From IMG/VR virus record IMGVR_UViG_3300007734_000861, positions 1 to 29,959 of that record: a DNA stretch of 29,959 nucleotides; one strand, given 5' to 3'. Both the position numbers and the translations under genes were made by a program. Below are positions 843 to 26,344 of the stretch, piece by piece. The notes below the pieces were generated by a model. The model was not told the DNA's origin. It saw only the letters and a program-made list of their open reading frames with translations, and did no database searches. How positions within the stretch are numbered: position 1 is the stretch's first letter; every line of letters begins with the position of its first letter. Origin of the DNA: a virus.

Positions 843-1280
843 ATGAAAAAATCAATTAACATCGTCAATAAGAAAGCCAAGTTTGAGTATTCATTTTTAG
901 AAACCCTAATTGTGGGAATCAAATTAGTTGGTTCAGAGGTGAAGTCCATCCGTCAGGGAAAGGTCTCCATATCTGAAGGGTATTGTTATTTCAACGAAGG
1001 TGAGTTGTTTATAAAGGGGATGAACATCTCTGATTATGGTTATGGGTCATTCCACGAGACCGTTAAGGATAGAAAACTATTAGCCAAGAAAAAAGAACTT
1101 AATAAGTTGGAACGTGAGTTAATCAACGGGACAACCATTATTCCTTATCGTGTCTTCATAAACGATACCGGATTGATTAAAATGGAGATTGCTCTTGCCA
1201 AAGGGAAGAAACTCCACGATAAACGAGATAGTATAAAATCTCGGGACATTGAAAGAGATATAAAAAGGGACTTGAAATAG
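843..1280 (+). CDS. smpB: SsrA-binding protein SmpB
   Basis: SmpB binds the tRNA-like part of tmRNA and carries it into the A site of stalled ribosomes for trans-translation. The 145 residues match the family along their length. They show an N-terminal NKKAKFEYSFLE start, a GSEVKSIRQGK turn (about 31-40), an EGYCYF strand, a DRKLLAKKKEL segment, and the near-invariant ALAKGKKLHDKRDSIKSRD stretch (about 117-135). The C-terminal tail ends at DIKRDLK and appears somewhat shorter than many cellular SmpB tails, which enter the mRNA channel. The gene has its own host-like promoter, and a terminator hairpin overlaps its stop. A tmRNA gene lies 0.5 kb downstream on the other strand. Phage-encoded SmpB is uncommon. 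Family assignment is very secure; use during infection is inference. Confidence 0.96.
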   Translation: MKKSINIVNKKAKFEYSFLETLIVGIKLVGSEVKSIRQGKVSISEGYCYFNEGELFIKGMNISDYGYGSFHETVKDRKLLAKKKELNKLERELINGTTIIPYRVFINDTGLIKMEIALAKGKKLHDKRDSIKSRDIERDIKRDLK

Positions 1281-1756: not shown

Positions 1757-2153
1757 TGGTGGAAGTGCGGAGACTCGAACTCCGGTGTTACTTGTATTAC
1801 CTATTAAGGACTACACGTTTAGGTCATTGTTTAAGCTAACAATCCGAAATTTCACAATTCCCTTATTTTTAGAGTGGTTCGGTTTACTGAGAACTAATCC
1901 TCCACTTGTACCTTTTCGGATAGGTACCACACCTTTGTAGGAACTCCTGTTGCTGGGTTATATGTTCACCGACCCCAATGTGAGTGTGCTTACGCTACGT
2001 TCACAAGCTCGTCTTGACGTACAAGACCTACTAGAGCCATTTTGTTTAAAACGTTTCCGTCTAAATTGTTGTACCCATAGATTTAAGTGATAGAGAACAT
2101 CTCACTACGTGCCCCGAATAACTATTACGAATAGTCAATTCCGTGTCACTCCC
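1757..2153 (-). ncRNA. ssrA: tmRNA (transfer-messenger RNA), about 397 nt
   Basis: Read on the minus strand, the RNA starts GGGAGTG and ends CACTTCC-A-CCA, giving a seven-pair acceptor stem (one G-U) with an encoded CCA end. GGAATTGAC just after the 5' stem matches the conserved D-loop-like GGnUUnGAC of tmRNA. Near the 3' end CGGAG-TTCGAGT-CTCCG forms the T arm. The middle holds the tag frame: TAGTA directly before GGT, as in tmRNA resume sites, then a short frame ending in TAA at 1990-1992. The length fits one-piece tmRNA (about 350-400 nt). A promoter lies immediately upstream and a terminator immediately downstream. It rescues stalled ribosomes together with SmpB, encoded at 843-1280. Pseudoknots were not folded in detail. 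Confidence 0.95.
1990..2028 (-). other. tmRNA tag reading frame: GLVRQDELVNVA-stop
   Basis: Following TAGTA, the frame GGT-CTT-GTA-CGT-CAA-GAC-GAG-CTT-GTG-AAC-GTA-GCG-TAA encodes GLVRQDELVNVA. A resume codon for Gly fits Bacteroidetes tmRNAs, whose tags usually begin with G and, as I recall, resemble GENNYALAA. This tag is longer and keeps neither NYA nor the LAA end; only the final Val-Ala resembles known variant degrons. The exact resume codon is inferred from the TAGTA context. If it were one codon earlier or later, the C-terminus would not change. Confidence 0.8.
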
Positions 2154-4498: not shown

Positions 4499-5596
4499 AT
4501 GAAAAAACTATATTTCTTAAATGAAGAAGAAAAAAATAGAATTTTAAACCTTCACGAGAGTGCAACAAAACGTCAATATTTAATGGAAACACCCTTGACG
4601 GATTTTTACGATAAATTACCTGCTGAGACCAAAAAGAAATTTACTGCTATGAATAATACTTGGCAAGATGGTGGGACTAGGGAAGGTGATATGTTAAATG
4701 TACTGAAAACATTTACAGCTGACGATTACAATAAATATAATCAATATTTGTTATTACATAAAAATAGTTCTGACCCTCTTGAGTATTCATCATTTCAAGA
4801 AATTATCAATGGTGAAATGGGTAAAGATAATTTGCAGGATGTTATTAATATTACCAATCAATTAAAAAATATGGGTGTTAACGCAACATATGTTAAAGAT
4901 AATATTGCCGATTTGCATCCAAATTCATTTAAAATTGGTGGTCCTGATACTAAAGGTGTTGCAAGTGATGCTAATTGGAATAGTATATACGCTTGTGTAA
5001 CCAAAGCAAAAGGGGCTACCCCAACAACACTAAGTGATAAATCAACTGCTTACATTTTAAATGGTTATGTATATTACAATAATGGTTTTAAAAGAAAACA
5101 ACCGGTAAAGACTAATAAATCAGAAAAATATACTTGTAATTCACCTGAATTTAAAACCGGAGTATCAACTGAAGATAAAGCAAAAAAATTACAACAATAT
5201 AAACAACAAATTATTACTAATACAAGTAATACTACAAAACAAATTCAAAAATTCTTAGGTTTACCCGAAACAGGTATTATGGATTCCGGTTTATTACAAA
5301 AAATTAATGAAAAATTAAATGGTAAACCACAAGAGGCTCCTAAAGCTGATGTTACTACACAACCAAAAGCTGAACCATTACAACAACTGACTACGGCGGG
5401 TGTTAAAACACAACAATTAACTACACCATCTACGGAACAATTAACCGCAGGATTACAACAACAACAACAAAAAGCTGCCGAAGCAGCAAAAACTCCACCT
5501 ACAAACAAAGAAAAAAGACAAGAGAGACGAGATTTGAGAGCCTCTAATAGAGCAGAATTGCAAGCTTTAAAAGATAAACAAAGAGGTAATCAATAA
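4499..5596 (+). CDS. Predicted virion protein with processed leader and PG-binding-like domain, 365 aa
   Basis: Residues 1-30 form a leader with EEKNRILNLHE and ATKRQYLME. It is nearly identical to the leader of the protein at 6273 and related to that at 8789. It ends in L-M-E, which fits the (I/L)xE site of T4-type prohead proteases. The body is of unknown type. Residues about 244-273 (QIQKFLGLPETGIMDSGLL) resemble a peptidoglycan-binding (PG_binding_1) half repeat. The C-terminus is low-complexity, with a Gln run (LQQQQQKAAEAA) and a basic end (KEKRQERRDLR). A late-type box precedes it. It is the first gene of a run of four that continues into a peptidase-like protein and a transglycosylase. 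It may be a virion-packaged cell-wall protein; leader processing is inference. Confidence 0.75.
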   Translation: MKKLYFLNEEEKNRILNLHESATKRQYLMETPLTDFYDKLPAETKKKFTAMNNTWQDGGTREGDMLNVLKTFTADDYNKYNQYLLLHKNSSDPLEYSSFQEIINGEMGKDNLQDVINITNQLKNMGVNATYVKDNIADLHPNSFKIGGPDTKGVASDANWNSIYACVTKAKGATPTTLSDKSTAYILNGYVYYNNGFKRKQPVKTNKSEKYTCNSPEFKTGVSTEDKAKKLQQYKQQIITNTSNTTKQIQKFLGLPETGIMDSGLLQKINEKLNGKPQEAPKADVTTQPKAEPLQQLTTAGVKTQQLTTPSTEQLTAGLQQQQQKAAEAAKTPPTNKEKRQERRDLRASNRAELQALKDKQRGNQ

Positions 5597-5614
5597 AATT
5601 AATAAAATAAGATA

Positions 5615-6271
5615 ATGAAAAAAGTTATATTAGAAGAAATTGAAAATATGAAATACCTTTTGGGGTATAAACGAGGTGTTGTTATTTCTGAACAGGATAG
5701 TAAAACTATTGCAGCAAACATTGATTCAGGTAATTTGGGAAATATTGACCCAAAGGCTGCTGAGGCAATTAAAGTAGCTCAAAGTATGGTTGGAGGGTCT
5801 AAATTAGGTGTGGAAGTTGGTGGTATTACAGGTGCCAACGCAGGTACTACTCCACCGGCAGGAACTCAACCACCAGCAGGTACTACTCCACCGGCAGGAA
5901 CTACTCCACCGGCAGGAACTACTCCACCGGCAACAACAACTCCGGTAACACCGATAAAAATTGGTGTGAAATACCCTTCAATAGAAGAATTGCAAACATC
6001 TTTAAATACTAAGTTTAAAAATACATTAAATGTGGATGGTAAATATGGACCTAAAACTGCATCAAGTGTACTAGCGGCATTACAACAATCACCCGCAAAT
6101 AGTACTGAAACAAATACTCCACCAAATATTGTTGTTGGAGACCCAAACTCTGATGTTGCTAAAAAAACCGCTGAGGCAAATGCTCAGTCAAATGATGTGA
6201 CAAATACAAATACACCACCTGCGGAAAGTAATACTAATTCTGGCGGGGAAAATTTTGACGAATATGATTAA
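5615..6271 (+). CDS. Predicted virion protein with PG-binding-like domain, 218 aa
   Basis: The N-terminus reads MKKVILEEIENMKYLLGYKRG and then VVISE-Q. It is a different leader type from its neighbours, but ends likewise in I-S-E (after residue 26), a candidate prohead-protease site. A Gly/Thr/Pro linker with repeated AGTTPP units spans about residues 76-108. Residues about 121-156 (SIEELQTSLNTKF, NVDGKYGPKTASSVLAAL) match the PG_binding_1 pattern with its G-x-Y/F-G-P-K-T turn. The C-terminus is an Asn/Thr-rich tail. The start carries AAATAAGATA-ATG, like the small genes at the left end. It lies 18 bases after the 365-residue gene and one base before the next, so it is co-transcribed. A likely role is binding peptidoglycan during entry or in the tail. 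Confidence 0.75.
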   Translation: MKKVILEEIENMKYLLGYKRGVVISEQDSKTIAANIDSGNLGNIDPKAAEAIKVAQSMVGGSKLGVEVGGITGANAGTTPPAGTQPPAGTTPPAGTTPPAGTTPPATTTPVTPIKIGVKYPSIEELQTSLNTKFKNTLNVDGKYGPKTASSVLAALQQSPANSTETNTPPNIVVGDPNSDVAKKTAEANAQSNDVTNTNTPPAESNTNSGGENFDEYD

Positions 6272-6272
6272 T

Positions 6273-7466
6273 ATGAAAAATTTATTTATAATTAACGAAG
6301 AAGAAAAAAATAGAATTTTAAATCTTCACGAAACGGCAACTAAAAGACAATATTTGTCTGAACAATCTTTAAATTTAGGTCAACAAGAAAAACCTGAACA
6401 ACCAGTTGTTGGTCCACAAACACTTGAGAATAGTGGTGCTATAATTAAACAAGGTTCAGGTAATGACCCTTACGTCTACGCTAAATTAGGTGATAATTTT
6501 TATTACGCCAAATCATCTGATGGTGATAATCCTATTTGGGTTTTGGCGACAATTGATGGTGCAATTAAGTCAATTAAATCTAAAATTTATAACGAAAATT
6601 TACCACCAATAAAAACAATTAAAGCTCCGGAAAAAGGTAAAACTAAAATACAAACTCCAAAGAAAAGTGATGGTTCTAACAAAAAATTAGTTAATAAAAA
6701 TAAAACTAATACTGGCGGTGAGAAAATGCTTCCAAAATTAAAACAACAAGGATTTAAAATTGATAAAAGTTCAGGGTTTAATCCTGCTAAGGGTTATTAT
6801 GTTTCCTCGTGTAAACAACACGGATGTGCCGAGTATACAAACGATATGTTAAATACAAGTTTGGGTGATGCTTGGCAAGCATATTCTAAAGTTAACGCCG
6901 AAACACCTGTGTCATCATCATTAGTTCAAAAAATGACAAATTTATTTAATAAAATGAATAAAAGTGGTGAAATTCCACAATTAGAAAATAAAGGTCCGTT
7001 TGATGCTGAGGCAAAAACAATTATTACTGAATTAATACCTGACCAATCTCAATTTCAAAATCTACCAATTGGTACTGTTGTCGGATTATATTATCCTGGT
7101 TCAGTAAATTATGACTTGGCATTTTTTCAATCAGCTATTGGAAAATCTCGTGATGAGAATGGTAATCTACATAATGTGATTGCAAAACCTTATTTCTGTA
7201 AAAATCCAAATAGTTGTTCATCAACAACTTGGGGTCAAAATGACTTAAATAAAAATGTAAAATTTTATCCTGGTAAAACATTATCAAGTGGTAAATCGTT
7301 TGCCCCTGTTACTCACTTAGGTTTTATAGGATATATAGATAAAAACGGTATTCCATATATTGTCCACGAAATATCATCACATTCTTCAGGACAAGTTTTC
7401 GCGTTTCCTGTTAATAAATTAGGTAACGGCAGATTATCAATTGTTTGGTCAGGTAAACCAGTGTAA
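6273..7466 (+). CDS. Predicted virion NlpC/P60-like cysteine hydrolase with leader, 397 aa
   Basis: The start at 6273 is chosen over 6255 because it gives MKNLF followed by EEKNRILNLHE, aligning with the leader of the 4499 protein. The leader ends RQYL-S-E (residue 30), a candidate prohead-protease site. Residues about 58-107 form a small strand-rich unit (YVYAKLGDNFYYAK, WVLATIDGAIK). The C-terminal half has C185 in HGCAEYTND, IGTVVGLYYP, H348 in THLGFIGYIDKNGIPYIVHE and H365. This is the Cys-His arrangement expected of NlpC/P60 or CHAP-type peptidoglycan endopeptidases or amidases, though distant. It lies between a PG-binding-like protein and a lytic transglycosylase. The enzyme class is an inference of moderate strength. 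Confidence 0.7.
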   Translation: MKNLFIINEEEKNRILNLHETATKRQYLSEQSLNLGQQEKPEQPVVGPQTLENSGAIIKQGSGNDPYVYAKLGDNFYYAKSSDGDNPIWVLATIDGAIKSIKSKIYNENLPPIKTIKAPEKGKTKIQTPKKSDGSNKKLVNKNKTNTGGEKMLPKLKQQGFKIDKSSGFNPAKGYYVSSCKQHGCAEYTNDMLNTSLGDAWQAYSKVNAETPVSSSLVQKMTNLFNKMNKSGEIPQLENKGPFDAEAKTIITELIPDQSQFQNLPIGTVVGLYYPGSVNYDLAFFQSAIGKSRDENGNLHNVIAKPYFCKNPNSCSSTTWGQNDLNKNVKFYPGKTLSSGKSFAPVTHLGFIGYIDKNGIPYIVHEISSHSSGQVFAFPVNKLGNGRLSIVWSGKPV

Positions 7467-7470
7467 TAGG

Positions 7471-8367
7471 ATGAAAAAAGTAATTAAACTAACCGAATCG
7501 GATTTAATTAATATTGTTAAACGAGTCTTGGAAGAACAACCAGACCAAAAATTTGACACGCCTTACAATAAAGAGTTGTTGAGGAACGCAAATAAACCAT
7601 TACCCCAAAAATATAAATGTATGACTCCGGAATTTTCACATTCAGTGGAATATGCAATATCAGAAGGGGTTGAACCATTTTGGGCTAAATATGCTTTGGG
7701 TATTTTGGGTAGAGAATCTGATTTTGGTAATGTAATGGGTAAGTTTGGTATAAAGGCGGTTCCTGAATACATAATGAATAAAATGTCCGAACTAATACCG
7801 GGATTCAAAGAGGTTTTACAATGGGGGGCAAAAAAATTCTTTAATAAAAACAATTGGGTACCAAGTATGGGGGTTGCTCAGATGACACCCGACATTGCAA
7901 AAAAGTATAATGTAAATTTAGAAGACTTAATGAGTGTTTCAGGGTCATTAGTCGCTGCGTCAAAATATTTAAAAAAATTATATAATGAAACAGAAAAATA
8001 TTACGACTCAAATCAACCATCTAAAATTATTTATAACAAACAATTAATAGACAATCCTTCATCATCAGGAAATGCTGCTTTAGACGCTGCAATTATGTCT
8101 TATAATTTAGGGTCATCTAAATTTAAAAAACAATATTGTAAAACAAATAGCTCAGAATATTTAGCTCCTTGTAATTCACCAAATGGACAATATCAACCAT
8201 TTCCAAAAGACAAACCAAATTTTATATTAAAGGTTGATAAGTCTCAAGTTATCAAAAATTATGTTCCAACAATAAAAACTAAAACAGGTGATAATAAGTA
8301 TATTAGTAATACAGGGTATTTAAAAGAAGTTGTTGGGTACGCAAATAAATTTAATTGTATTAAATAA
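7471..8367 (+). CDS. Lytic transglycosylase (SLT-like) with leader, 298 aa
   Basis: The enzyme would cleave glycan strands of peptidoglycan. E82 in ILGRESDFG fits the catalytic Glu, SMGVAQMTP (132-140) is the conserved S-x-G-x-x-Q-x-x-P block, and AAIMSYNLG (about 205-213) is the A-x-x-x-YN-x-G block. An insertion of about 45 residues separates the first two. The start at 7471 is preferred over 7441 because it avoids overlap with the previous gene. It gives MKKVIKLTESDLINIVKRVL followed by EE-Q, a leader I recall as frequent in uncultured phage proteins, with L-E-E at 20-22 as a candidate cleavage site. There is no signal peptide, so it is not a secreted endolysin. A virion-associated entry enzyme is more likely. 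Confidence 0.83.
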   Translation: MKKVIKLTESDLINIVKRVLEEQPDQKFDTPYNKELLRNANKPLPQKYKCMTPEFSHSVEYAISEGVEPFWAKYALGILGRESDFGNVMGKFGIKAVPEYIMNKMSELIPGFKEVLQWGAKKFFNKNNWVPSMGVAQMTPDIAKKYNVNLEDLMSVSGSLVAASKYLKKLYNETEKYYDSNQPSKIIYNKQLIDNPSSSGNAALDAAIMSYNLGSSKFKKQYCKTNSSEYLAPCNSPNGQYQPFPKDKPNFILKVDKSQVIKNYVPTIKTKTGDNKYISNTGYLKEVVGYANKFNCIK

Positions 8368-8371
8368 TTTA

Positions 8372-8683
8372 TTATAATTTACTCAATTTTCTTGCCTCAA
8401 TTTCCATAGGTCCATATTTTCTACCATATTTTTTATATTCATAAATGTATGTAAAATAGAATCCAAAAAATCCCATTCTTTGATATTGTGACCAATGAAT
8501 CATTTCGTGTTTTAATATTGATTTATCGGTCTTATATTTAGATTCAATAAATGTCCCAAATGGAGGAATAGTTGCAGCCATTTGACTACCAGGAATGTCA
8601 AAAGGTATGTAATATATTTTATCTTTTTTAGTGGTAATGTATAATAAAAAAACACAAGATACTATTAAAAAATATTTTTTCAT
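8372..8683 (-). CDS. Small membrane-anchored HExxH protein, 103 aa
   Basis: The start at the Met giving MKKYFLIVSCVFLLYI is preferred over the longer frame (8731), because the promoter box lies inside that extension. Residues 3-17 form a hydrophobic anchor or uncleaved signal. H59-E60-x-x-H63 (ILKHEMIHWSQ) is a zinc-protease motif. GFFGFYFTYIYEY follows as a second hydrophobic stretch, and then MEIEARKL, where E94 or E96 could be the third zinc ligand of a gluzincin-like site. Similar short HEMIH proteins occur in Bacteroidetes, from memory. It lies opposite the virion genes and converges on the transglycosylase gene with only four bases between the stops. It could be a small membrane protease or a zinc-binding protein; the substrate is unknown. 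Confidence 0.75.
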   Translation of the reverse strand: MKKYFLIVSCVFLLYITTKKDKIYYIPFDIPGSQMAATIPPFGTFIESKYKTDKSILKHEMIHWSQYQRMGFFGFYFTYIYEYKKYGRKYGPMEIEARKLSKL

Positions 8684-8701
8684 AATGATTAATTTAGAAT
8701 A

Positions 8702-8731
8702 CAAAGATATATATAATATTATTAATAACAA
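8702..8731 (-). promoter_or_regulatory. Bacteroidetes-type promoter of the HExxH gene
   Basis: On the minus strand, TTG (8731-8729), a 19-base spacer and TATCTTTG (8709-8702) form a full promoter. The same spacing is found before smpB, tmRNA and clpC. The leader to the ATG at 8683 would be about 10-15 bases. Confidence 0.8.
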
Positions 8732-8763
8732 AAAAAAATTTATATTCTCTTTTTTTTTGTGTT

Positions 8764-8772
8764 ATATTTATA
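8764..8772 (+). promoter_or_regulatory. Candidate late-promoter box ATATTTATA
   Basis: The box lies 16 bases before the ATG at 8789. It lies back to back with the minus-strand HExxH promoter. Confidence 0.55.
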
Positions 8773-8788
8773 ATAAACTACTAATATT

Positions 8789-9208
8789 ATGAAAAATTTA
8801 TTTAACGACATCTCTAAAGAGGAGAAAAATAGAATCCTTGAGATGCACTCAGGTAAAAAAAATGTGATTTTTGAAGACGATATGACAGGTATGGACACTA
8901 ACATCAATGAGGTAACACCTAAAGATTATGTTTTAACAGACCACGCAATGGGAAAAACATATCCCTTTTTAATTAAAAAAAACACACCAATAATTGTAAA
9001 AAACGGGATTATAAATATTAAATGTTTTGTTGGTGATGTTATATCAACAAGTATGATTAGTGATGGTATTAAACCTAAGGATGTGAAAATTGTTAGGTCT
9101 GAAATTGCAAAATTTGATTGTAAAAGTGGCGCCTTTAATTTAGGTGAAGAAGAAACAAATGAAAATAATTTATCAACATATCTTATGTCTAAATTTTGTA
9201 GAAAATAA
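8789..9208 (+). CDS. Predicted virion protein with processed leader, 139 aa
   Basis: The leader MKNLFNDISKEEKNRILEMH is related to the leaders of the proteins at 4499 and 6273 (shared EEKNRIL and a following His). Its conserved part is followed by VIFE-D, giving I-F-E (residues 27-29) as a candidate prohead-protease site. The remaining 110 residues are of unknown type, with a strand-rich core (FLIKKNTPIIVKNGIINIKCFVGDVI) and two or three cysteines. The gene has its own late-type box and ends at a bidirectional terminator shared with clpC. Shared leader and promoter class suggest it is packaged in the virion with the other leader proteins, which is inference. Confidence 0.72.
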   Translation: MKNLFNDISKEEKNRILEMHSGKKNVIFEDDMTGMDTNINEVTPKDYVLTDHAMGKTYPFLIKKNTPIIVKNGIINIKCFVGDVISTSMISDGIKPKDVKIVRSEIAKFDCKSGAFNLGEEETNENNLSTYLMSKFCRK

Positions 9209-9218
9209 ATTAAATAAC

Positions 9219-9248
9219 AAAAAAAGAGGACTATTTGTCCTCTTTTTT
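9219..9248. terminator. Bidirectional terminator between the 8789 gene and clpC
   Basis: AAAAAAGAGGAC-TATTT-GTCCTCTTTTTT is symmetric, so it can end both convergent genes. The clpC stop codon lies in the loop. Its core GAGGACTATnTGTCCTC recurs in the terminator at 28481-28508. Confidence 0.88.
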
Positions 9249-11276
9249 AATTCTACTCTTTTTTACCTTTTCCGGTTTAACTACTACTTCTTTATCTACA
9301 GATACAAGGGTGTATGATGTACCTTCCACCATATTTCCTTTGATAATCTCTTCAGATACAAAATCCTCAATCTTATCTTGGATTGCTCTTTTGATTGGTC
9401 TTGCCCCATAGGTCTCATCAAATCCAACTTCAGAGATTAGGTCTAAAATTGACTCATCAAATGTGATATCGTATTTCAATCCAACCAATCTTTTGGATAA
9501 TTTATCCAATTCCAAAGTCACAATTTTCTTAACATCTTCTTTAACTAAAGAGTTGAAGATAACAACCTCATCAATTCTGTTTAAGAATTCCGGTGTAAAG
9601 AATTTTTTAAGTTCTTTTTTAAGAGTCTCACGTTTGTATTCCTCTTCGGCGTAAGAACTATTACCCGTTTTGAACCCAACACCCGAACCAAAATCCTGTA
9701 ATTTTTTAACCCCCACATTTGATGTCATAATGATAACACAATTTTTGAAGTTAATCTTTCTTCCCATACCATCGGTAAGGTGACCATCGTCTAATACTTG
9801 AAGAAGTGTTGAGAAGATATCTTTGTTAGCTTTCTCAATCTCATCAAATAGAATTACAGAATAAGGTTTGTTTTTCACCTGTTCAGTTAATTGTCCCCCT
9901 TCATCGTATCCAACATATCCCGGAGGTGCTCCAATCAATCTTGAGATGGTGTGTTTTTCTTGGTATTCGGACATATCCACACGAATCATATTATCTTCAC
10001 TACCAAACATTTGTTTTGCTAGTTGTTTCGCCAAGTATGTTTTACCAACACCCGTTGAACCTAAGAAGATGAATGAACCAATTGGTTTGTTTGGGTCCTT
10101 GATACCAATTCTGTTTCTACGGATTGATTTGGCAATCTTTGAAACTGCTTCAGATTGTCCAATAACTTTATCGGATAGGTTTGCCTCCATCTCGGATAAT
10201 AGTTTGGTTTCATCGGCATTTAATTTGGTTACCGGAATTTTGGTCATATTGGAAACCACCTCATAAACTAAATCCAAACTGATTTCTTTTTTGTGTGAAA
10301 GAAGTTCTTCCTCAAACTTTTTCTTTTCAACTTCAAGTTTGGTTAAGATACGTTTTTCTTTATCACGTAGGTTTGCTGCCTCCTCGTATCGTTGTTGTTT
10401 TACAACATCCACTTTTTCTTGTTTGATGTCTGCGGCTTGTTGTTTCAACTTCTCAATTGATTCCGGCATTTTAATTTCAACTTGACTTCTTGCTCCAACC
10501 TCATCAATGATGTCAAACCCTTTATCCGGAAATTCTCTATCGGTGATGTAACGGTCTGCTAAATCAACACATACTGACAATACTTCATCCGTGTAAGTTA
10601 CCTTATGAAAATTTTCATATTTGTCTTTTACATTTTTAAGAATGATTAAAGTTTCTTCTTTGGTTGCGGCATCCACAACAACTTTTTGAAAACGTCTTTC
10701 TAATGCTCCGTCTTTCTCAAAGTTTTTTCGGTATTCATCTAAGGTTGTTGCCCCAACACATTGAATCTCTCCACGAGCAAGTGCCGGTTTAAAGATGTTT
10801 GATGCGTCCATTGAACCTGATGAATTTCCTGCTCCAACTATGGTATGAATTTCGTCAATGAATACAATGATGTTTGGTGCGTTCTGAAGTTCTTCAATTA
10901 TAACTTTCATTCTTTCTTCAAATTGTCCACGGTATTTGGTTCCGGCAACAATTGATGTCATATCTAAGGATACGATACGTTTGTCCATTAAGTTTCTTGG
11001 ACATTCCCCATTATAAATCATAATGGCAAGACCTTCCACGATTGCGGTTTTACCACAACCAGGTTCTCCGATGATTATTGGGTTATTTTTCTTTCTACGT
11101 GAAAGGATTTGGGCAATTCGTGTGATTTCTCTTTCTCTACCAATTACCGGGTCAAGTTTACCCTCTTCGGCAAGTTTAATTAAATCTCTACTAAAATTGT
11201 CTAATACGGGTGTTGATGAGTCAGTCTTAACTGCTTTATTACCACCATTACTTCCACCATCCATAGATTCTGTCAT
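9231..11276 (-). CDS. clpC: ClpC-type AAA+ unfoldase lacking the N-domain, 681 aa
   Basis: ClpC unfolds proteins with ATP and feeds them to ClpP. Both AAA+ modules are complete. The first has GEPGCGKT (70-77), Walker B VFIDE (about 138-142) and [11 protein letters not shown] (substrate pore region). A UVR-type middle segment with [15 protein letters not shown] (about 296-310) follows. The second has GSTGVGKT (406-413), VILFDE (474-479), the G-V-G-F loop (532-535) typical of ClpP-binding partners, FLNRIDE (564-570) and sensor-2 GARP (624-627). The text closely resembles Bacteroidetes ClpC, which is about 840 residues, but the first 140 or so residues (adaptor-binding N-domain) are missing. They are replaced by a short Gly/Ser/Asn-rich start. 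It has its own host-type promoter. ClpP is not in the window, so host ClpP is the likely partner. Confidence 0.93.
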
Positions 11277-11960: not shown

Positions 11961-12698
11961 ATGAGTAATCTTAAAAGTATATTATCAAGTTTTCATTTAC
12001 AAGACGAACTAAATCCAAAGATTTGGGAATCGTCTGATAAAATGTCTCCTAAAGTTAGGGAGAGATTATTAGAGATTGCTTATGAGTTTATAGAATTTTT
12101 AGGGGTTGATGTTATTATATCCGATGTTGTAATGACCGGTTCACTTGCAAATTATAATTGGTCACAATATTCCGATGTGGATTTACATTTAATTGCTGAC
12201 TTTGACCAATTCTCTGAAAAAGAACTTCCATTATATGAAGAACTCTTCAAATTAAAAAAAACTTTATTTAACGACAAACACAACATCAAAATATATGGTT
12301 ATGATGTGGAACTCTATGTTCAAAATGATGTTGAGGCACATTTTAGTAGTGGAGAGTATTCAGTATTATTTGATGAGTGGAAAAACAAACCTAAAAAAGA
12401 AGATGTTGAAATAGACACTGCGTTAATTAAAACTAAATCTGAACATTGGATGAAAATTATTGATGAAGTTATTGATGATTCAAAAGAAAAATCAATGGAA
12501 TCCGGTGTTGATAGTATTAATAAGGTTAAAGATAAATTAAAAAAATATAGAACTGCTGGTCTTGAAGATGGTGGTGAAATGTCGGATGAAAATTTAGTGT
12601 TTAAAGTTTTGAGAAGAAATGGTTATATTCAAAAACTATTTGATTTTCAAAATGAATATCAGGATAAAAAACTTTCTTTAAAGGAAAAATCAATATAA
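11961..12698 (+). CDS. Nucleotidyltransferase-fold protein, 245 aa
   Basis: The protein carries the core of the polymerase-beta-like nucleotidyltransferase fold: G60-S61 in MTGSLANYNW, then D72-x-D74 in YSDVDLHLI as metal ligands, and DVELYVQ (115-121), where E117 or D115 could be the third acid. HFSSGEYSVLFDEWKNKP follows, a pattern I recall from phage nucleotidyltransferases. The C-terminal third is helical and charged. The substrate is unknown; members of this fold modify RNA ends, proteins or small molecules. It follows the small KTSC gene and precedes a hairpin and the virion operon. The metal-binding acids look intact, so it should be active. Confidence 0.8.
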   Translation: MSNLKSILSSFHLQDELNPKIWESSDKMSPKVRERLLEIAYEFIEFLGVDVIISDVVMTGSLANYNWSQYSDVDLHLIADFDQFSEKELPLYEELFKLKKTLFNDKHNIKIYGYDVELYVQNDVEAHFSSGEYSVLFDEWKNKPKKEDVEIDTALIKTKSEHWMKIIDEVIDDSKEKSMESGVDSINKVKDKLKKYRTAGLEDGGEMSDENLVFKVLRRNGYIQKLFDFQNEYQDKKLSLKEKSI

Positions 12699-12782: not shown

Positions 12783-14333
12783 ATGGGAAACAATTTAAGA
12801 CCGGTTGGTAGCGAAAAACTACAAGGAATGGAGAAAATCCAACGTATTATGGAAATCGCTAGATACAAAGAAAATATACCTACACCTATTAATGAGGATA
12901 AATCTACTGAATATACTAAAGTTTTAGCTAACGGTAAAACTTATAAAATTGATAAAGAAAAAAGTGGTTACATTATTAAATGTAGTTTAACTGAATCAAC
13001 AAATGAGTTTGATTATATGGAGCCTATGAAAAATAGAAAATACTATTCATCATATTCTCAAGCGTTAAAAAGACTTAATTTAGTTGCTAAAGAAGTTAAT
13101 GTTAATGAAGGTAACGAAAAGAATGTTAATTTATTTTACGAAAGTCCTCAAGAGGCTACTAAGTATATTTTAAAAATGAATGGTGGTGAAACATCAGAAC
13201 AAGCGGCACCAGCTCCGGCACCTGCACCAGCTCCGGCACCTGCACCAGCTCCTGCTCCGGCACCTGAACCTGCTCCTGAACCAGCACCACAAGAACCTGA
13301 AGACATTGATGTAGATGTTGATTTAGAAGATGATGACAACGAAGAAGTTACTTTAAAATCAATTCAAAAATTAACAGGTAAATTGGCTCAAAAATTAAGA
13401 GCGTTCCAAGAAACTGAAGAAGGTCAACAAGAAATGACTTCTAAAGATTCAAAATATGTAATTAACTCAATTTTATCGGCATTAGATTTGGATTCAATGG
13501 AAGAAGAAGATAAAGAAGAAATTGTTGATAAAATAGAAGGAACTGAAGATGAAGGTATGGGTGATTTTAATCCGGACGAAATGGGTGATGAAGAACCTGA
13601 CTTTGGAGGTGAAGAAACTCCTGAATCTCCTGAAGGTGAAATGGGTGAAAGTTTTATGCACGATGATGTTGAAGAAGACAATCCTGATGATTACGATTTT
13701 GATTTATCAAAATTTGATTTAGAAGATGGTGATGATGAGTTTGAAGAACTTGATATTAAACCAAGACATCCAAAACATAGAAGTTTACACCATCCACATA
13801 TTGAACCTCATCACGCAGGTCACCTTGAAGATATGATTGAAGGAATTTTTACTGAATCTAAAGTTGATAAAATTATTGAGGGTTATTTTAAAATAGATTC
13901 AAATGAAAAAAAATTATTAGAGTCTAAGAAAAAACAAGCTAAGGTAAATGCTGAAAGTAAAAGAAGAGAAGATATGAAAGGTAAAAAATGTAAGACTTGT
14001 GGTAAAGGTACTTACCAAGATGAATCTTACATGGATGATTTAAAGGGAATTCTTCATTGTACTAACTGTGATGAGAAAATTCAAAGATATAAGTCAAATG
14101 AAAACAATATGAAATACACAACTACATTAGAAGGATTCGTAAATGAAAGTAAAAAAGTTAAAATTAATAAAATCAAACAATTATCTGAAAGTATTTCTCA
14201 AGAAGTTGGTGCAAGAAAATTAATGGAAAAATATCCAAACGCTAAATTGATTGGTAAAACAAACAGACAAAACTTGGTATTTGAAATGAATAACAAACAA
14301 TTAAGAGTTAATACAAAAGGTCAGATTATATAA
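12783..14333 (+). CDS. Predicted virion or assembly protein with zinc ribbon, 516 aa
   Basis: The exact family is not recognised, but its place at the head of the terminase operon suggests a structural or assembly role. The N-terminus has a helical stretch (EKIQRIMEIARYKEN) and then TPINE-D, with I-N-E (36-38) as a candidate prohead-protease site. A Pro-Ala run (about 140-172) forms an extended linker, followed by a very acidic stretch. A conserved-looking helical unit (SIQKLTGKLAQKLRAF, YVINSILSALDLD) comes next, then more acidic sequence and a His-rich patch (HPKHRSLHHPHIEPHHAGH). Finally there is a zinc ribbon with C403, C406, C426 and C429. The stop overlaps the next start (TAATG). Confidence 0.75.
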   Translation: MGNNLRPVGSEKLQGMEKIQRIMEIARYKENIPTPINEDKSTEYTKVLANGKTYKIDKEKSGYIIKCSLTESTNEFDYMEPMKNRKYYSSYSQALKRLNLVAKEVNVNEGNEKNVNLFYESPQEATKYILKMNGGETSEQAAPAPAPAPAPAPAPAPAPAPEPAPEPAPQEPEDIDVDVDLEDDDNEEVTLKSIQKLTGKLAQKLRAFQETEEGQQEMTSKDSKYVINSILSALDLDSMEEEDKEEIVDKIEGTEDEGMGDFNPDEMGDEEPDFGGEETPESPEGEMGESFMHDDVEEDNPDDYDFDLSKFDLEDGDDEFEELDIKPRHPKHRSLHHPHIEPHHAGHLEDMIEGIFTESKVDKIIEGYFKIDSNEKKLLESKKKQAKVNAESKRREDMKGKKCKTCGKGTYQDESYMDDLKGILHCTNCDEKIQRYKSNENNMKYTTTLEGFVNESKKVKINKIKQLSESISQEVGARKLMEKYPNAKLIGKTNRQNLVFEMNNKQLRVNTKGQII

Positions 14334-14743
14334 TGAGTTATTTAATATATGTTAATGAATTAGGTCCTAACTATAAGGGTGATAACATATATGAATTTAT
14401 TTTCTCGGATAGTTCTGAAGATGTTTGGGGTGAAGCTTGGGAATCAAAACCATCAAATGGTTACCCACTCCCACCGGACATAGAACACATTAAAAAAGTA
14501 GGAGTTTTGAAGAATGACCAAATCACAATGTCAGTAATTCAAAACTCTGACTATTTTTCAATGATAGATTCAATGGATGATATAATCGCATTATGTTGGG
14601 AAAATGAGAGTGAAGATGTTGATTTCACTCGACAAAAAAGATTGGTTTTTAAGTTTGGAGAAACAGAACAATCAGTCAAAGATAAATTATACGAAAGAGA
14701 TATCGTATTGGAATTTGAAAAAACAATTGAATATGAACACTAA
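14333..14743 (+). CDS. Hypothetical protein in the terminase operon, 136 aa
   Basis: The family is not recognised. The 136-residue acidic protein starts with strands (YLIYVNELG, IYEFIFSD). A Trp-rich segment (VWGEAWESKPSNGYPLPPDIEHI) follows, then a strand-helix part (KVGVLKNDQITMSVI) and a segment with SMDDIIALCWENES. The C-terminal part (LVFKFGETEQSVKDKLYERDI) could be another strand-helix unit. The start shares one base with the preceding stop and the end overlaps the next gene by 11 bases, so translation is coupled in the virion operon. It is probably a small structural or chaperone-like protein of the head or neck. Confidence 0.78.
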   Translation: MSYLIYVNELGPNYKGDNIYEFIFSDSSEDVWGEAWESKPSNGYPLPPDIEHIKKVGVLKNDQITMSVIQNSDYFSMIDSMDDIIALCWENESEDVDFTRQKRLVFKFGETEQSVKDKLYERDIVLEFEKTIEYEH

Positions 14744-15731
14744 TCAGAAAAAATTAAAACTAGTGATGGAGGGGATTAAAGCCTCTACTCTAAATAAAAT
14801 GACCGATAGTCAGGTTGATGTGTTGTTCAGTAAATTACAAGAACAAGTTACTGAGGTACCCGGTAAAAAAACATATAAAGTAGGGCCAGCAGGTGGTAAG
14901 GTTGGTAATTTAAATATTACACAAGACCCGAGCACTAAAGAAGTTATGGTAACTGCTACGGAAAGTGAAATTGATGAGGACGCGGATTTAGATGATTCTG
15001 CTGAAAAAGATAGTGGTTTTGACCCTTACGCAGGTAATAGTGTTGGAAACAATGATGGTCCATCTAAAGATGATGGATTTGGTGGTGGATATAATGGAAT
15101 GGGTATGTTTGAAGAAAAAGAAATTGACGAAAAATTTGAATCAAAAAAACAACAAAAATATTTTTTTGCTAAATGTGGTGACGGAAAAACAAAAGAACAA
15201 AAAAAATGGTGTAAAATGGCCGATGAGTTTGGAAAAAAGACTAACTTTGCTAAACTTCCTGAAAAGAAAACAGAAACAAAAGAAAATTATCAAGAAATGG
15301 TTAGTGGTGCATTAAATAAAATTGCAATGTCTAAATTAGGTCAGATAAAACCAACTGTTACTATGGGAGAAAGTAAAATTGAAAAAGAAATTATGAGACT
15401 TGTAGAAAAACACATTACACCAAAAATGTCTAAAAAAGATTTTCAAAATCTTTTAGAAGGAGACACAAAAACTGCTCCGGCAAAACCAAAGGTTAGTCCG
15501 GGAGTAAAACCAAAACACCCATTCCAACCGGACCCTAATAAAAAAGGAGCTCCAAAAGCGAAGAAAAGAGTGATGGACAAGGATACAAAAACTGCACCGG
15601 CAAAACCAAAAGTTAATCCTGGTACTACACCAAAACATCCTTTTGCTCCGGACCCTAATAAACAAGGAGCTCCAAAGGCGATTAAAAAAGGATTACCAAG
15701 TTTTTTAAAATTTAATCAGTTAGGTCTTTAA
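14733..15731 (+). CDS. Predicted virion or assembly protein with tandem Pro/Lys repeats, 332 aa
   Basis: The start at 14733 (MNTNQKKLKLVMEG) is preferred to 14604 because it overlaps the previous gene only at its end. The N-terminal 40 residues are helical and contain KLQE-Q, with L-Q-E (35-37) as a possible prohead-protease site. The middle is acidic and Gly/Asp rich (DDGFGGGYNGMGMF), followed by a basic unit with two Cys (FFAKCGDGKTKEQKKWC). The C-terminus carries two tandem copies of about 36 residues, each with KTAPAKPKV and KHPF-x-PDPNK-x-GAPKA. The repeats are also visible in the DNA (about 15461-15690). No function is recognised. It belongs to the operon ending in terminase. Confidence 0.75.
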   Translation: MNTNQKKLKLVMEGIKASTLNKMTDSQVDVLFSKLQEQVTEVPGKKTYKVGPAGGKVGNLNITQDPSTKEVMVTATESEIDEDADLDDSAEKDSGFDPYAGNSVGNNDGPSKDDGFGGGYNGMGMFEEKEIDEKFESKKQQKYFFAKCGDGKTKEQKKWCKMADEFGKKTNFAKLPEKKTETKENYQEMVSGALNKIAMSKLGQIKPTVTMGESKIEKEIMRLVEKHITPKMSKKDFQNLLEGDTKTAPAKPKVSPGVKPKHPFQPDPNKKGAPKAKKRVMDKDTKTAPAKPKVNPGTTPKHPFAPDPNKQGAPKAIKKGLPSFLKFNQLGL

Positions 15732-15742
15732 TCAAAATAGTT

Positions 15743-17134
15743 ATGAGTGTAAATTTAAAAATGGAAAAAATATTAAAAGTCAAAGGTGGGTTAGATAAAA
15801 AATTGGTTAATGAAGGATTAACTAATAACCAACAAACTATGTTAAACGAAATTAATCGTCGTTTAAATGAAGCTCCTGTTAGTTATGAAGGTCCTGAAAA
15901 AATGGAACCGGGAATTGAAAGACAAATCAATCAAAGAAAAACTCCGTATGCCGAACACCCTGCGTTACCACAAGATGGTGATAGAGATTTTGTTGAGATG
16001 ATATCTTCTCAACGATTTAAGGACTCTGTAGATAAAGTAAGAAGATTTTTAGGTGATACAACACCAATACAAGGAGATAATCCAATGATGGGACTAATGA
16101 GTTCTGTTATGGGTAGTTTACAACAAATTAAAAGAGTTGAAGTTCAACACAAAGAATATCTTGAAAACTTAGCGGTTGATTTAGTTAAAAAAGAATTAGG
16201 TATTCCTGAAGGACAATTGCAATTTGATGTTGAATTAGTTAATGGTCCAATGGGAGCTTCCGAAGGAATGCAAACTCAACCTGAGCAACCGGATGAAGAA
16301 GAAGTTGAAGAAGCGTTCAAAGAAGGTGAAGAACACCAAGAAGAAATAGAAGACTTTATGGATTCTATGGAGAAATTTAATTTAGAGAAAGCGAAAAGAA
16401 GAATGATTAATTCATTAGTTCAAGGTGCGGCATTTAAAGGTGGTCATATGTATACGTTAGTTAGTGATGAAATAAATAGATTAAGTCCAAACTTATTAAA
16501 TTTATACGGTGTAACGCAATCACTAATGGAACATTTATATTGGTTATATCCGGATATGGAAAATATGGCCGGTGGAGGTGGTGGTCAAATGGGACAATCA
16601 GAATCTGACCCTGAAACTGACCCACCAACAATTAAAGCGAAAGCATTTACCTTCCCGTTATTAGTTCACGAGATAGTTAAAGGTATTTATTCATTATATG
16701 GTGACCAAGGATTACCAAATGACCCTGTTCAAAGAAGTATGGTTGTTGGTGCTGAAGATACATTACCATCAGAAATATGGGATTCAAGATTGGGTCCAAT
16801 ATTTTGGGAAAAATTTAGAGAATCGTGGCCTGACAAATTATATGAAGATGACCAAAGACACCTTCAACAATATTTATTTATGAAACTATCTCAACTAGAG
16901 GCAAAAGATTTTATAGTATTGTCAAAAGCTATTATGGCTGATAAACCTGAAGCAAAAGAGGTAATAAATAGAATGGTTAACGAAATCGTTGAAATCCTTA
17001 AGAAACACGAATACGAAACAAAAATGTCTGATGATGACAATGATGATGAGGACGATAATGAAAATTATGGAGATTACGGATTTGATGACTTAGATGACTT
17101 AGACGATATTGATTTATCTTCGTTAGGATTCTAA
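15743..17134 (+). CDS. Predicted virion or assembly protein upstream of terminase, 463 aa
   Basis: The family is not recognised. The N-terminus has two L-N-E sites (MLNE at about 33-36 and RLNE at 40-43), followed by a Pro-rich stretch (APVSYEGPEKMEPG), so it too could be trimmed by the prohead protease. The rest is mostly helical (FVEMISSQRFKDSVDKVRRFL, MMGLMSSVMGSLQQIKRVE). It has acidic loops, a Gly run (AGGGGGQMG), a large predicted globular part (HEIVKGIYSLYGDQG, RLGPIFWEKFRESWPD) and a strongly acidic C-terminus (DDDNDDEDDNENYGD, LDDLDDIDLSSLGF). Lying directly before terminase, it may act in head assembly or at the packaging vertex. That is inference from position. Confidence 0.77.
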   Translation: MSVNLKMEKILKVKGGLDKKLVNEGLTNNQQTMLNEINRRLNEAPVSYEGPEKMEPGIERQINQRKTPYAEHPALPQDGDRDFVEMISSQRFKDSVDKVRRFLGDTTPIQGDNPMMGLMSSVMGSLQQIKRVEVQHKEYLENLAVDLVKKELGIPEGQLQFDVELVNGPMGASEGMQTQPEQPDEEEVEEAFKEGEEHQEEIEDFMDSMEKFNLEKAKRRMINSLVQGAAFKGGHMYTLVSDEINRLSPNLLNLYGVTQSLMEHLYWLYPDMENMAGGGGGQMGQSESDPETDPPTIKAKAFTFPLLVHEIVKGIYSLYGDQGLPNDPVQRSMVVGAEDTLPSEIWDSRLGPIFWEKFRESWPDKLYEDDQRHLQQYLFMKLSQLEAKDFIVLSKAIMADKPEAKEVINRMVNEIVEILKKHEYETKMSDDDNDDEDDNENYGDYGFDDLDDLDDIDLSSLGF

Positions 17135-17155: not shown

Positions 17156-18922
17156 ATGTCAAATTTAACAAGAGAACAAGTACTTATTGAGTACGTAAAA
17201 TGTAGTAGAGATATTGAATACGCCCTTAAAACGTATTTAGAAACTTACGATAACACCGTTAAAAAATATGTTCCATTAGAACTTTTTCCGGACCAAGTAA
17301 CATTACTTAATGATTACGAAGAATACAATGAAAATATAGCTTTAAAATACAGACAGGCCGGGGTATCAACCGTTACCGCGGCTTGGATGTCTAAAAAACT
17401 AGTATTTGCAAGAAAAGAAACTCCCGAGAAAATATTGATTATCGCCAATAAGTTGGATACTTCATTGGAGATGGCAAACAAAATTAAATCCTTTGTTGGT
17501 CAATGGCCATCTTGGACGGGTATAGATTTTGATAAAGCAAAAAATTCACAAAGACACTATAAATTAACAAATGGATGTGAGGTCAAAGCCGTTGCAACAT
17601 CTAAGGATGCCTTGCGTGGATTTACACCTACGATACTTGTATTTGATGAGGCGGCGTTTATTGAAGCCGATAGTGACTTTTGGTCTGCCTGTATGGCGTC
17701 CCTATCTACGGGGGGTAAAGTAATTGTGATTTCAACACCAAATGGTTATGACGCAATTTACTATGAAATATATGACCAAGCGTTACGTAATATGAATGAC
17801 TTCAAAATTACGGAGATGTTTTGGTATAGAGACCCTAGATATACAAAAGATTTATATTTTGTTAAAACGGAAAACATAATCCATTATTTATTAAACAAAG
17901 AAGAATATAACCCTAATGATTTTATTGATTGGGGTAGTAAATCATATGATGCAAGAAACTTTGATGATGTTAAATTACTAATGGCTGACGGATACAAACC
18001 CTGTTCATCTTGGTTTGAGGCGATGGTAAAGAAATTAAAATACGATAAACGTAAAGTATCTCAGGAGTTGGAATGTAACTTCTTAGGTTCCGGAGATAAT
18101 GTATTTGATTCTCTTATGATGCAAAATATTCGTGAAAATATGGTTCTTGAACCTATTAGTAAAATGATGGGTAATGCTCTTTGGATTTGGAAAGACCCAA
18201 TTGTTGGTCATAAATACATTATGGGTGTCGATGTTTCCCGTGGGGATTCTGAAGATTTTAGTTCATTTCAAATTATAGATTTTGATACCCAAGAACAAGT
18301 TGCGGAATATGTGGGAAAATTACCTCCTGATACAATGGCGGAAATTTGTCATAAATGGGCAACAATATATTCTTGTTTTGTGGTAATTGATATCACCGGT
18401 GGAATGGGTGTTTCAACCGCCAGAAAACTACAAGAAATGAATTATAGGGATTTATATGTTGATGGTCTTGATTTGTCAAACAAATGGAAATATGACCCAA
18501 AAGCAATGGATAAAATTCCTGGAATAAATTTTAACAATAAAAGGGTTCAAATTATTGCGTCATTTGAAGAAGTGATGAGACATAAATTTAGAATTTATAG
18601 TGCTCGTTTATACAACGAGATGAATACCTTTGTTTATATCAATGGTCGTCCTGACCACCAAAAAGGACATCACGATGACTTAATTATGTCAATTGCGATG
18701 GCAACTTACGTCGCAGAATCTTCTTTTAGTAAATTAAGTAAGGTTACCGAACAAACCAAAGCAATGATTGATTCTTGGTCTGTGAGTAATAATGAAGCAA
18801 TTAAAGAGAATATTAATTTTGACCCTGTTATTCCACATTACCAAGATAGAATTAATCAATTTGGTAGCCAACAAGTTAGTCGTGAAGATTATCAAAAATA
18901 TGGTTGGTTATTTGGTATGTGA
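17156..18922 (+). CDS. Terminase large subunit (T4 gp17-like), 588 aa
   Basis: TerL is the DNA-packaging ATPase and headful nuclease. The ATPase part shows a P-loop KYRQAGVST (64-72), Walker B TILVFDE (158-164) and the coupling motif ISTPNG (191-196). The P-loop lacks the usual Lys after the last Gly; K64 at its start probably serves, as in other deviant terminase P-loops. The nuclease part has an RNase H-like acid set: D358 in MGVDVSRG, D411 in VVIDITGG and D506/D507 in HHDDLIMS. The 588 residues are close to T4 gp17 (610). It is the last gene of the 12743 operon, 21 bases after the 463-residue gene, and is followed by a late-type box for the surface-protein genes. Confidence 0.95.
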   Translation: MSNLTREQVLIEYVKCSRDIEYALKTYLETYDNTVKKYVPLELFPDQVTLLNDYEEYNENIALKYRQAGVSTVTAAWMSKKLVFARKETPEKILIIANKLDTSLEMANKIKSFVGQWPSWTGIDFDKAKNSQRHYKLTNGCEVKAVATSKDALRGFTPTILVFDEAAFIEADSDFWSACMASLSTGGKVIVISTPNGYDAIYYEIYDQALRNMNDFKITEMFWYRDPRYTKDLYFVKTENIIHYLLNKEEYNPNDFIDWGSKSYDARNFDDVKLLMADGYKPCSSWFEAMVKKLKYDKRKVSQELECNFLGSGDNVFDSLMMQNIRENMVLEPISKMMGNALWIWKDPIVGHKYIMGVDVSRGDSEDFSSFQIIDFDTQEQVAEYVGKLPPDTMAEICHKWATIYSCFVVIDITGGMGVSTARKLQEMNYRDLYVDGLDLSNKWKYDPKAMDKIPGINFNNKRVQIIASFEEVMRHKFRIYSARLYNEMNTFVYINGRPDHQKGHHDDLIMSIAMATYVAESSFSKLSKVTEQTKAMIDSWSVSNNEAIKENINFDPVIPHYQDRINQFGSQQVSREDYQKYGWLFGM

Positions 18923-18945: not shown

Positions 18946-20580
18946 ATGGGTATCTCAGATAGAAAGAGAAGTATTGAAGTTCCAGTTAGTATAAATCTAG
19001 ATTTAACACAAGAAACAAAACCAAACCAAGTAATTGTTCAAAACAATTTTAAGGGGGGTGATTTTGTTAGTAGAAAAAAATCAGGTAATATTATTGCGGG
19101 CTCAAAACTTAATGTGGATGGTCAAGGGATTTTTACTGTTAAAAATGGTGATAACAATAATATTAAAAAATATTTTCCTAAACCTACCCCTGTAAGTGAA
19201 GGTAATCCTCCGACTCCAACACCAACTCAAACTCCAACTAATACACCAACAAATACGACAACTCCAACAGTAACACCAACAGTAACTCCAACAACAACAA
19301 TATTGTATTGTGATATAAATTATTATGTTCCGGCAACACCAACTCCAACACCAACACCAACCAATACTATAACACCAACGGTAACATCAACAGTAACTCA
19401 AACACCAACTCAAACTAATACTCCGACAGTAACATCAACATTAACTCAAACACCAACTCAAACAAATACTCCAACAATAACTAATACACCAACCAATACA
19501 ATAACACCATCTCAAACTCCAACATATACGCCAACAAAAACAATGACTCCAACACCAACATCTACAATTGGTTCCACACCTCCTGTAACTCCGACTCAAA
19601 CATCAACGCCTACTCAAACAAGTACTAACACACCAACACCAAGTACTACAACTACAATGACACCTACAACTACAATGACACCTACAATGACACCTACAAG
19701 AACAATGACACCTACAATGACACCTACAATGACACCTACAAATACAAACACACCTACAAATTCAATGACGCCAACTCCAACACCGACAAATAGTGTTACT
19801 TGTAATTGTTTAACATTTGTTAATAATTCATCTCTTATGTTACCGTATAACTATACTGATTGTAACGGTAATAATATTAGTCGTATAATTCATAACAATC
19901 AAACAATAACTGTTTGTGGAACAAATCCAGAATCACCTAAAGAGGTTAACATAACAATTGGTGTTTGTAATGAAACTTGTATTGTTGATTGTTTTGAATA
20001 TACTGTAACATTAACTAGTGAAATTCGTTGTGTATTTACATTGACACCTTGTTGTGATAACAAAATAGCGTCTCCTTATATTTTAACATCAATAGAAGGG
20101 TCAGTAACATTCTACTCTACAACATATCCGGTAATTACAGAGGGTGCCGGTATTATTGATGATAATGGAACCGCTTGTGCGAAATCGTGTAATACATATG
20201 ATGTGTATTCTGAAATTGGTAGTACAATAATATTCCAACCTTGTTGTGGTGAATTAAGAACATCTCCGTATGTGATATTACCTAAGGATTCAAAACCACT
20301 TGTAATATGTTCAGCAATATTACCTAATAGTGATTATAAAAATAGTAAAATTGAAAATAAAGGTAAGTGTCCGTCTTGTGCCGTGAATTGTGATAGATAT
20401 GATGTAGATGCACCAGTTAATACCACAATAACATTTAACCCTTGTTGTGGTGAAGAAAAAAAATCTCCGTATGTGATACAGGAAGATGATTTATTACCAA
20501 TTGGATTATGTTCATCAACAACACCAGGTATTGACACTTTTGGTAGTGTTACTAAAATTGGTCAGTGTCCATCTTGTTAA
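18946..20580 (+). CDS. Pro/Thr-linker, Cys-rich surface-type virion protein, 544 aa
   Basis: The protein has three parts. Residues 1-78 form a soluble N-terminal unit ([21 protein letters not shown]) that may anchor it to the capsid or tail. Residues about 79-284 are a long Pro/Thr repeat of PTPT, TPTQT and MTPT units, expected to be an extended stalk. Residues 286-544 are Cys-rich, with three related units containing PCC followed by SPY (TPCCDNK..SPY, QPCCGEL..SPY, NPCCGEE..SPY), ending in PSC. The family of these units is not recognised. There is no signal peptide. Its place between terminase and portal, where T4 has tail sheath and tube genes, suggests a virion decoration or fibre, possibly binding host surface glycans. 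The next gene is 12 bases downstream. Confidence 0.8.
19180..19794 (+). repeat. Pro/Thr-coding imperfect tandem repeat, first copy
   Basis: Degenerate short repeats such as ACTCCAACACCAAC and ACAATGACACCTAC (several copies near 19655-19740) encode the PT stalk. A block around TATTGGTTCCACACC-like sequence coding [19 protein letters not shown] is shared with the next gene. Confidence 0.9.
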
Positions 20581-20592
20581 AAATAAAAAATT

Positions 20593-25339: not shown

Positions 25340-26059
25340 ATGAAAAATTTTGGATTACTAAAATCAAGAATAGAAAATATGTTATTAGAATCATACGCTA
25401 ATGACACATTCAAAAACGAATTAAAAACATTTAAGAAACTTGTTATTGAAAATAAAAACATTAGCAAATTGTTTTATTTATACGATGAGTTGGGTTCACC
25501 AAAGTCATTAAGTGAATCTTACTGTAACGAATACATAAATGAATGTATTAAAATTTACGAAAATACCGTAAATAAAATAAAACAATCTGATATCAATAAA
25601 TTAGTTACTTGGGTTGGAAATAAAAAAATTGAAAATGGATATACAAATATTGATATATTATTTTCTAGTGATGTTTTAACTATTGAGTCAAAAATTAAAA
25701 GTAGAAAAGTTATTGCGGAATCTCTTAAAAAATTACCGGTAACTAAAACTGAAGGTATTGATTTACCATTATCGACAATGGTTAGTGTTGCCAACAAAAC
25801 TATTAAAAGTTATATTGATGGTTTAAACGAATCAGATAAAAAAGAATTAATCGCTTTGTTGTCGGAAGATGACTCAACATTAAATGAAAAATACATCACA
25901 CTTAAAGAAGGTGTGGTTACAAAACTAACAGAAATGAAAAATGACAGCACTGATAATTCAATGCAAACAAGAATTGATGAAACTATATCAAAAGTGATTT
26001 CTGAAAAATACGATAAACTTACGTATTTCAAACTTAAGAATCTTAAAGAGAATCTTTAA
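25340..26059 (+). CDS. Helical protein next to portal, possible prohead-core component, 239 aa
   Basis: The family is not recognised. The 239-residue protein is almost entirely helical and rich in Lys, Glu and Asn (KNELKTFKKLVIEN, EYINECIKIYENTVNKIK, MVSVANKTIKSYIDGL). The N-terminus MKNFGLLKSRIENMLLE-S has L-L-E (15-17) as a candidate prohead-protease site. It occupies the place of T4 gp67/gp68 between portal and prohead protease, so a prohead-core role is plausible but unproven. The stop overlaps by three bases the stop of the convergent ribosomal-protein gene, with no terminator visible between them. Confidence 0.72.
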   Translation: MKNFGLLKSRIENMLLESYANDTFKNELKTFKKLVIENKNISKLFYLYDELGSPKSLSESYCNEYINECIKIYENTVNKIKQSDINKLVTWVGNKKIENGYTNIDILFSSDVLTIESKIKSRKVIAESLKKLPVTKTEGIDLPLSTMVSVANKTIKSYIDGLNESDKKELIALLSEDDSTLNEKYITLKEGVVTKLTEMKNDSTDNSMQTRIDETISKVISEKYDKLTYFKLKNLKENL

Positions 26060-26250: not shown

Positions 26251-26344
26251 ATAATACATATATCTTCGTCCTACAAAAAAGTTTTGACATTGCACATAAA
26301 AATGTCTATTATTTTAAAAAATAAACGAGAAAATATGAAAATTA

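Follow-up and report, generated by a model that had tools for sequence, protein, structure and literature searches.

Modular N-terminal leaders ending in an (I/L)xE site as likely capsid-targeting propeptides of Bacteroidetes jumbo phages

The prohead protease gp21 of phage T4 cuts after L/I-X-E, removes targeting propeptides of 10-19 residues and itself contains an L/I-X-E close to its N-terminus (PMC9026906). The capsid-targeting sequences cut in this way (on IPI, IPII, IPIII and Alt) are reminiscent of short helical N-terminal leaders that we describe here from five genes at 4499-9208 of the IMG/VR virus record IMGVR_UViG_3300007734_000861, a 30-kb viral contig analysed over positions 1-29,959 (hereafter the window). 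As in T4, mature parts that are unrelated to each other are preceded by a short N-terminal peptide with (I/L)xE at its end, and an S77 protease, a gp20-like portal and a gp23-like capsid protein also occur in this phage. In contrast to T4, there are several unrelated leader types, which are often longer (15-43 residues) and often followed by Gln, about 30-40 leaders instead of a handful are found per genome, leaders are swapped between phages, and the system is known here from sequence alone.

Two further systems invite comparison. The giant phages SPN3US and phiKZ likewise pack many proteins whose N-termini are trimmed after xxE, the head-protein propeptides being cut by gp245 and gp175, respectively; however, these propeptides mostly exceed 100 residues, processing affects eight proteins in SPN3US (PMC5694885), and the two phages use other motif classes (AxE, SxE) and belong to a different phage lineage. 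In phage P1, the first 30 residues of DarB suffice to direct a foreign protein to the capsid, whereas no N-terminal consensus was reported for the Dar proteins (PMC9024508), which form no interchangeable leader family. A search of the open-access literature retrieved no description of the leaders presented here.

We consider it likely that these leaders are modular capsid-targeting propeptides of the T4 type, cut by the S77 protease and used by 30-40 proteins per genome. Each leader would act as a short amphipathic helix bringing its protein into the prohead, probably via binding to the core, and the protease would cut after the terminal [I/L/V/M]-x-Glu, so that the body stays in the capsid. 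Tag and body would be independent modules, in that several unrelated tags share one type of cut site, at which bodies swap tags, and Bacteroidetes jumbo phages would tag some 30-40 proteins per genome in this way, cell-wall enzymes among them. We infer that the tagged proteins are packaged, cleaved and ejected together with the DNA.

Leader types and the terminal site

The initial annotation had proposed five genes whose helical leaders end in LME, ISE, LSE, LEE and IFE, an EEKNRIL-x-x-H core common to genes 4499, 6273 and 8789, and RQYL-x-E in the first two of these, all of which we found as described. The leaders, all on the plus strand, fall into three unrelated types (below, a slash marks the predicted cut). 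Type A comprises those of gene 4499-5596 (30 residues at 4499-4588, ending RQYLME/T), gene 6273-7466 (30 residues at 6273-6362, ending RQYLSE/Q) and gene 8789-9208 (a short-spaced form of 29 residues at 8789-8875, ending NVIFE/D). Type B, with the consensus KxIxLTESDLxxIVKRVLxE, is represented by gene 7471-8367 (22 residues at 7471-7536, ending RVLEE/Q), and type C by gene 5615-6271 (26 residues at 5615-5692, reading EIENMKYLLGYKRGVVISE and ending GVVISE/Q), whose predicted mature protein starts with QDSKTIAANIDSG. Relatives add further types, such as type D with the consensus MKxIITESQYxxLxE; leaders of types D and E are about 15-19 residues long. An AlphaFold2 model of the 6273 protein, built from 6 sequences, placed a helix at residues 9-28 of the leader with low confidence, and its mean predicted local distance difference test score (pLDDT) of 41 is too low for the body to be compared with known folds.

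To follow the site among relatives, we searched viral contigs for the leader cores with degenerate DNA patterns and translated proteins from the matches, which brought together hundreds of relatives; the terminal site was not part of the patterns, and that for type B stopped four residues ahead of the Glu. Type B gave at least 120 matches in viral contigs. Among the matches listed, 116 distinct leaders carried Glu at the predicted cut (P1) without exception (116/116), and P3 was I in 92, L in 17, V in 4 and M in 3, hence I or L in 109. In the same set, P2 had an entropy of 2.7 bits (N, K, S, E, Q, R, A, I and others), and from P2' onward the entropy rose to 3.7-4.1 bits, which equals background. 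A hydrophobic P3, a free P2 and a fixed Glu, followed by background, is the pattern expected from an (I/L)xE protease. All 57 distinct type A leaders had an [ILVM]xE within 18 residues after the helix His, at offsets of +2, +8, +10, +11, +12, +13 or +14, compared to 15.6 +/- 3.2 of 57 (maximum 27) with shuffled tails. The 19 type C leaders all read VISE or VVSE, then Gln, and a second site was present in 90 of 102 type D leaders. As the leaders are related sequences, these counts do not represent independent events, yet the free P2 and the free spacing make mere shared descent an unlikely cause of the conservation. Thus, the conserved (I/L)xE position that the initial annotation predicted for relatives was recovered for types A, B and C in a sample unselected for the site.

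Several observations weigh against this interpretation. At the nominal site, TLE or NLE stands in seven type A homologues and TKE in one; the seven retain the Glu but have T or N at P3, in partial conflict with the expectation that no homologue would keep the leader and lose the site. The second site is missing in 12 of the 102 type D leaders as well as in most of the related 'ITEN' proteins. Furthermore, each leader contains an earlier [IL]xE near residue 7, perhaps capping the helix or marking a second cut, and the motif alone therefore gives no unique cut; we prefer the distal site because conservation ends there. In two relatives (G001 and G002), many genes start with MKxIITE[NS] and have only the first eight residues in common, constituting a class lacking a second (I/L)xE site, whose members may be cut after ITE or may stay outside the capsid.

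Exchange of leaders and the range of bodies

The proposal of a swappable address tag gained support from homologous bodies that carry unrelated leaders joined at the Glu. As a test set, we took bodies whose homology begins at the predicted cut and whose leaders are unrelated. Among 28 distinct partner leaders, 12 had an [ILVMF]xE whose end coincided exactly with the join and 21 had one ending no more than a residue away, at a background of about 0.9 site ends per other offset. Exact joins numbering 114 were also compiled, but with the site required on both sides and with divergent homologues among them, so that only the 28-leader set serves as a test. An example in the window is the body of the conserved gene 15743-17134 (AP-x-x-Y-E/D-GPE), here preceded by a leader of 43 residues (15743-15871, plus strand, ending LNE/AP). 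It occurs behind at least six different leaders, all reading [IL]xE/AP, including MKTYKKRINE and MGNLTEKELDRIVNKIINE, each followed by AP, in relatives. Likewise, a LysM-domain body was found behind MAKRFIITEEEKGDILSKYGLVSE or MAKIIRLTESDLNKIVKRVIEE, a body beginning QLGNFGDIRN behind MKIIISESQYKILNE or MTNRTIIKQILNQFLTE, and a DHH-like body behind MKIIITESQYRQIIKE or MVFINMRKKLISE. Conversely, the five window bodies, compared with each other, gave no match beyond chance (best E = 0.04), so that leaders are common to proteins with unalike mature parts.

With regard to the nature of these bodies, the view that all are cell-wall-type domains held only in part. Those of 7471 (SLT, lytic transglycosylase-like) and 5615 (PG_binding_1-like) have sub-threshold similarity and that of 4499 a very weak C-terminal PG_binding_1-like stretch, whereas 6273 and 8789 have no Pfam match. 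Across 71 tagged proteins we encountered PG_binding_1, LysM, SLT, OmpA, pterin-4a-carbinolamine dehydratase and several DUFs, mostly once each, and the majority of the cargo consists of small proteins of no recognised function. Relatives of 6273 keep the leader and the middle domain and differ in their C-terminal domains; in two of them (L128:6374-7606 and L139:6115-7338), a C-terminal S-x-G-C-I/V-like motif resembles L,D-transpeptidases by eye, with no Pfam match.

Candidate leaders, all on the plus strand, also precede three other window genes: at 14733-14843 (ending LQE/Q, in a gene ending at 15731, proposed from the sequence and its orthologues in G002 and G001), at 12783-12896 (ending INE/D, gene 12783-14333) and at 11961-12029 (ending IWE/S, gene 11961-12698, with a nucleotidyltransferase-like body).

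The prohead protease and its sites in head proteins

The gp21-like protease recognised by the initial annotation at 27504 proved a true Peptidase_S77 (27504-28235, plus strand; PF03420, 85.2 bits against a cut-off of 27). It has an N-terminal site of its own, ILIE/Y, at residue 20, and nearly all protease sequences read ILVE or ILIE, then Tyr. Downstream lies a candidate for the acidic prohead core or scaffold protein (28627-29958, plus strand, running off the window), assigned by its position between the protease and the major capsid protein (MCP), in which LSE/Q is conserved at residue 48; nearly all sequences read K-E-S-L-x-E-Q, where x is S, T, F, K, N or R. The T4-like MCP reads LINE, then Ala, in all sequences found, at the expected end of the gp23 propeptide, and its propeptide region and mature start align weakly with T4 gp23. 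Judged by sequence, the S77 protease is thus accompanied by the same type of site in both the capsid and the core protein.

Protease searches yielded at least 80 relatives, the largest parent contigs among those listed measuring 318 and 309 kb. We read these two, six others in whole or in part, and two more of about 295 kb, on all of which genes were called mechanically. Among 32 leader-bearing contigs above 150 kb, an S77 protease was detected in 27. The other five count against the propeptide reading; the portal family was not detected in them either, and in one the contig breaks off within the MCP, which is consistent with a missing head module, although a different head type in these contigs is conceivable. 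G033, the 269-kb record behind L372, has both the S77 protease and the gp20-like portal in duplicate; it either contains a second head module or was assembled from two genomes.

The head module further includes the large terminase subunit (17156-18922) and a T4 gp20-like portal protein (23431-25317), both on the plus strand. Ribosomal protein bS21 (26056-26295, minus strand; PF01165, 31.8 bits) is encoded inside this module, and because this reverse-strand gene sits within the terminase-portal-protease region, the window belongs, by its sequence, to the bS21-encoding Bacteroidetes jumbo phages (Chen et al. 2022, PMC9723584), which share this arrangement and have genomes of up to 331 kb. Unlike the present analysis, that paper, in the parts considered here, covers bS21 and its expression rather than leaders or packaged proteins. 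Between terminase and portal, two genes (18946-23382, plus strand) contain long Pro/Thr-rich repeats, the second with seven DUF285 (BspA-like) stretches, and perhaps encode head or surface fibres. A GIY-YIG/NUMOD3 homing endonuclease gene (26837-27511, plus strand) lies between a conserved 156-residue gene and the prohead protease, a place where it does not occur in G001, G002, G004 and G009. Elsewhere in the window, a transfer-messenger RNA (tmRNA; 1757-2153, minus strand; Rfam RF00023, 70.5 bits, missed by ARAGORN) and a nearby SmpB gene (843-1280, plus strand; PF01668, 159 bits) form a phage-encoded trans-translation pair, and a ClpA/ClpB-like ATPase is found at 9231-11276.

Genome-wide scale, alternative explanations and implications

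In four near-complete genomes, [ILVMF]xEQ occurred at residues 11-40 of 33/338, 27/331, 15/329 and 22/325 proteins, compared to mostly 4-9 proteins for an internal window of equal size, which indicates an N-terminal excess. Profile-defined leaders numbered 31, 40, 15 and 35 in four near-complete genomes, with a downstream site in 27, 34, 13 and 33 of them, and near-complete relatives of 308-318 kb have about 30-40 apiece; more leader-like starts, such as MRLTNTLSTLITE and MKLIESIRQIITE, appear in relatives. The top 31 of 1634 proteins ranked by the type B profile all match within their first 30 residues. The same profile ranked core proteins 157th, 158th and 345th, giving no support to the idea that the leader helix is a copy of a core-protein helix. 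The nearest isolate match to the window protease (42% identity) is that of the T4-like cyanophage Mel-JY01 of Microcystis, whose head module also contains bS21 and an MCP with a QLISE/A site; its first 140 kb served as a control and had no N-terminal excess (6/171 against 10/158). In 257 Gb of prokaryote genomes the type B core turned up in no more than 4 stretches, as opposed to the at least 120 matches in viral contigs, and by this distribution the type B leader is phage-specific. A tblastn search with the leader alone against isolate phages gave no match.

How else could such leaders be explained? They might be docking helices for a virion part or an assembly intermediate that remain uncut and whose terminal Glu belongs to the binding surface, as could be argued from leader conservation along the whole length rather than at the site alone, and from the homologues without I or L two positions before the Glu. 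We regard this as unlikely, since a binding surface requires no hypervariable residue between two fixed ones, [ILV]xE is kept although its distance from the helix varies by as many as 12 residues, and the same site is found in MCP, core and protease. Considerably less probable still is a role that has nothing to do with the head, with the leaders as tags for localisation or regulation, for instance in an intracellular phage compartment or in controlled degradation. The many small, dispersed bodies of unrecognised function and the tmRNA, SmpB and Clp-type ATPase encoded in the window would fit such a role, which however leaves unexplained both the joins exactly at the cut site and the leaders' agreement with the head protease sites of MCP, core and protease.

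Hardly credible, finally, is that the leaders are leftovers of gene duplication with diverged bodies, the xE being a by-product of helices rich in Lys, Glu, Ile and Leu. That composition and the short [IL]xE motifs earlier in each leader speak for it; on the other hand, shuffled tails reproduced the site far less often than the leaders carry it, the Glu of the listed type B leaders is invariant beside a variable neighbour, and the swaps, in which the same body follows unrelated leaders, contradict it along with the shuffling.

Beyond the T4-type propeptide reading itself, there is a reasonable, somewhat better than even, case for a general protein-loading code, in which several unrelated leader families and one head protease would fill each capsid with some 30-40 or more different proteins, about a tenth of the gene set. 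If so, leaders and cargo would recombine at the cut site, genomes would reveal cargo repertoires directly, and the head-carried and probably injected proteins of abundant uncultured phages could be listed from their genomes. The cell-wall enzymes, the LysM and DHH proteins and the many small unknowns would then be natural candidates for host takeover or anti-defence, and the tags could become tools for loading capsids with cargo. Dozens of 'hypothetical proteins' per genome would become a testable class with predicted mature N-termini.

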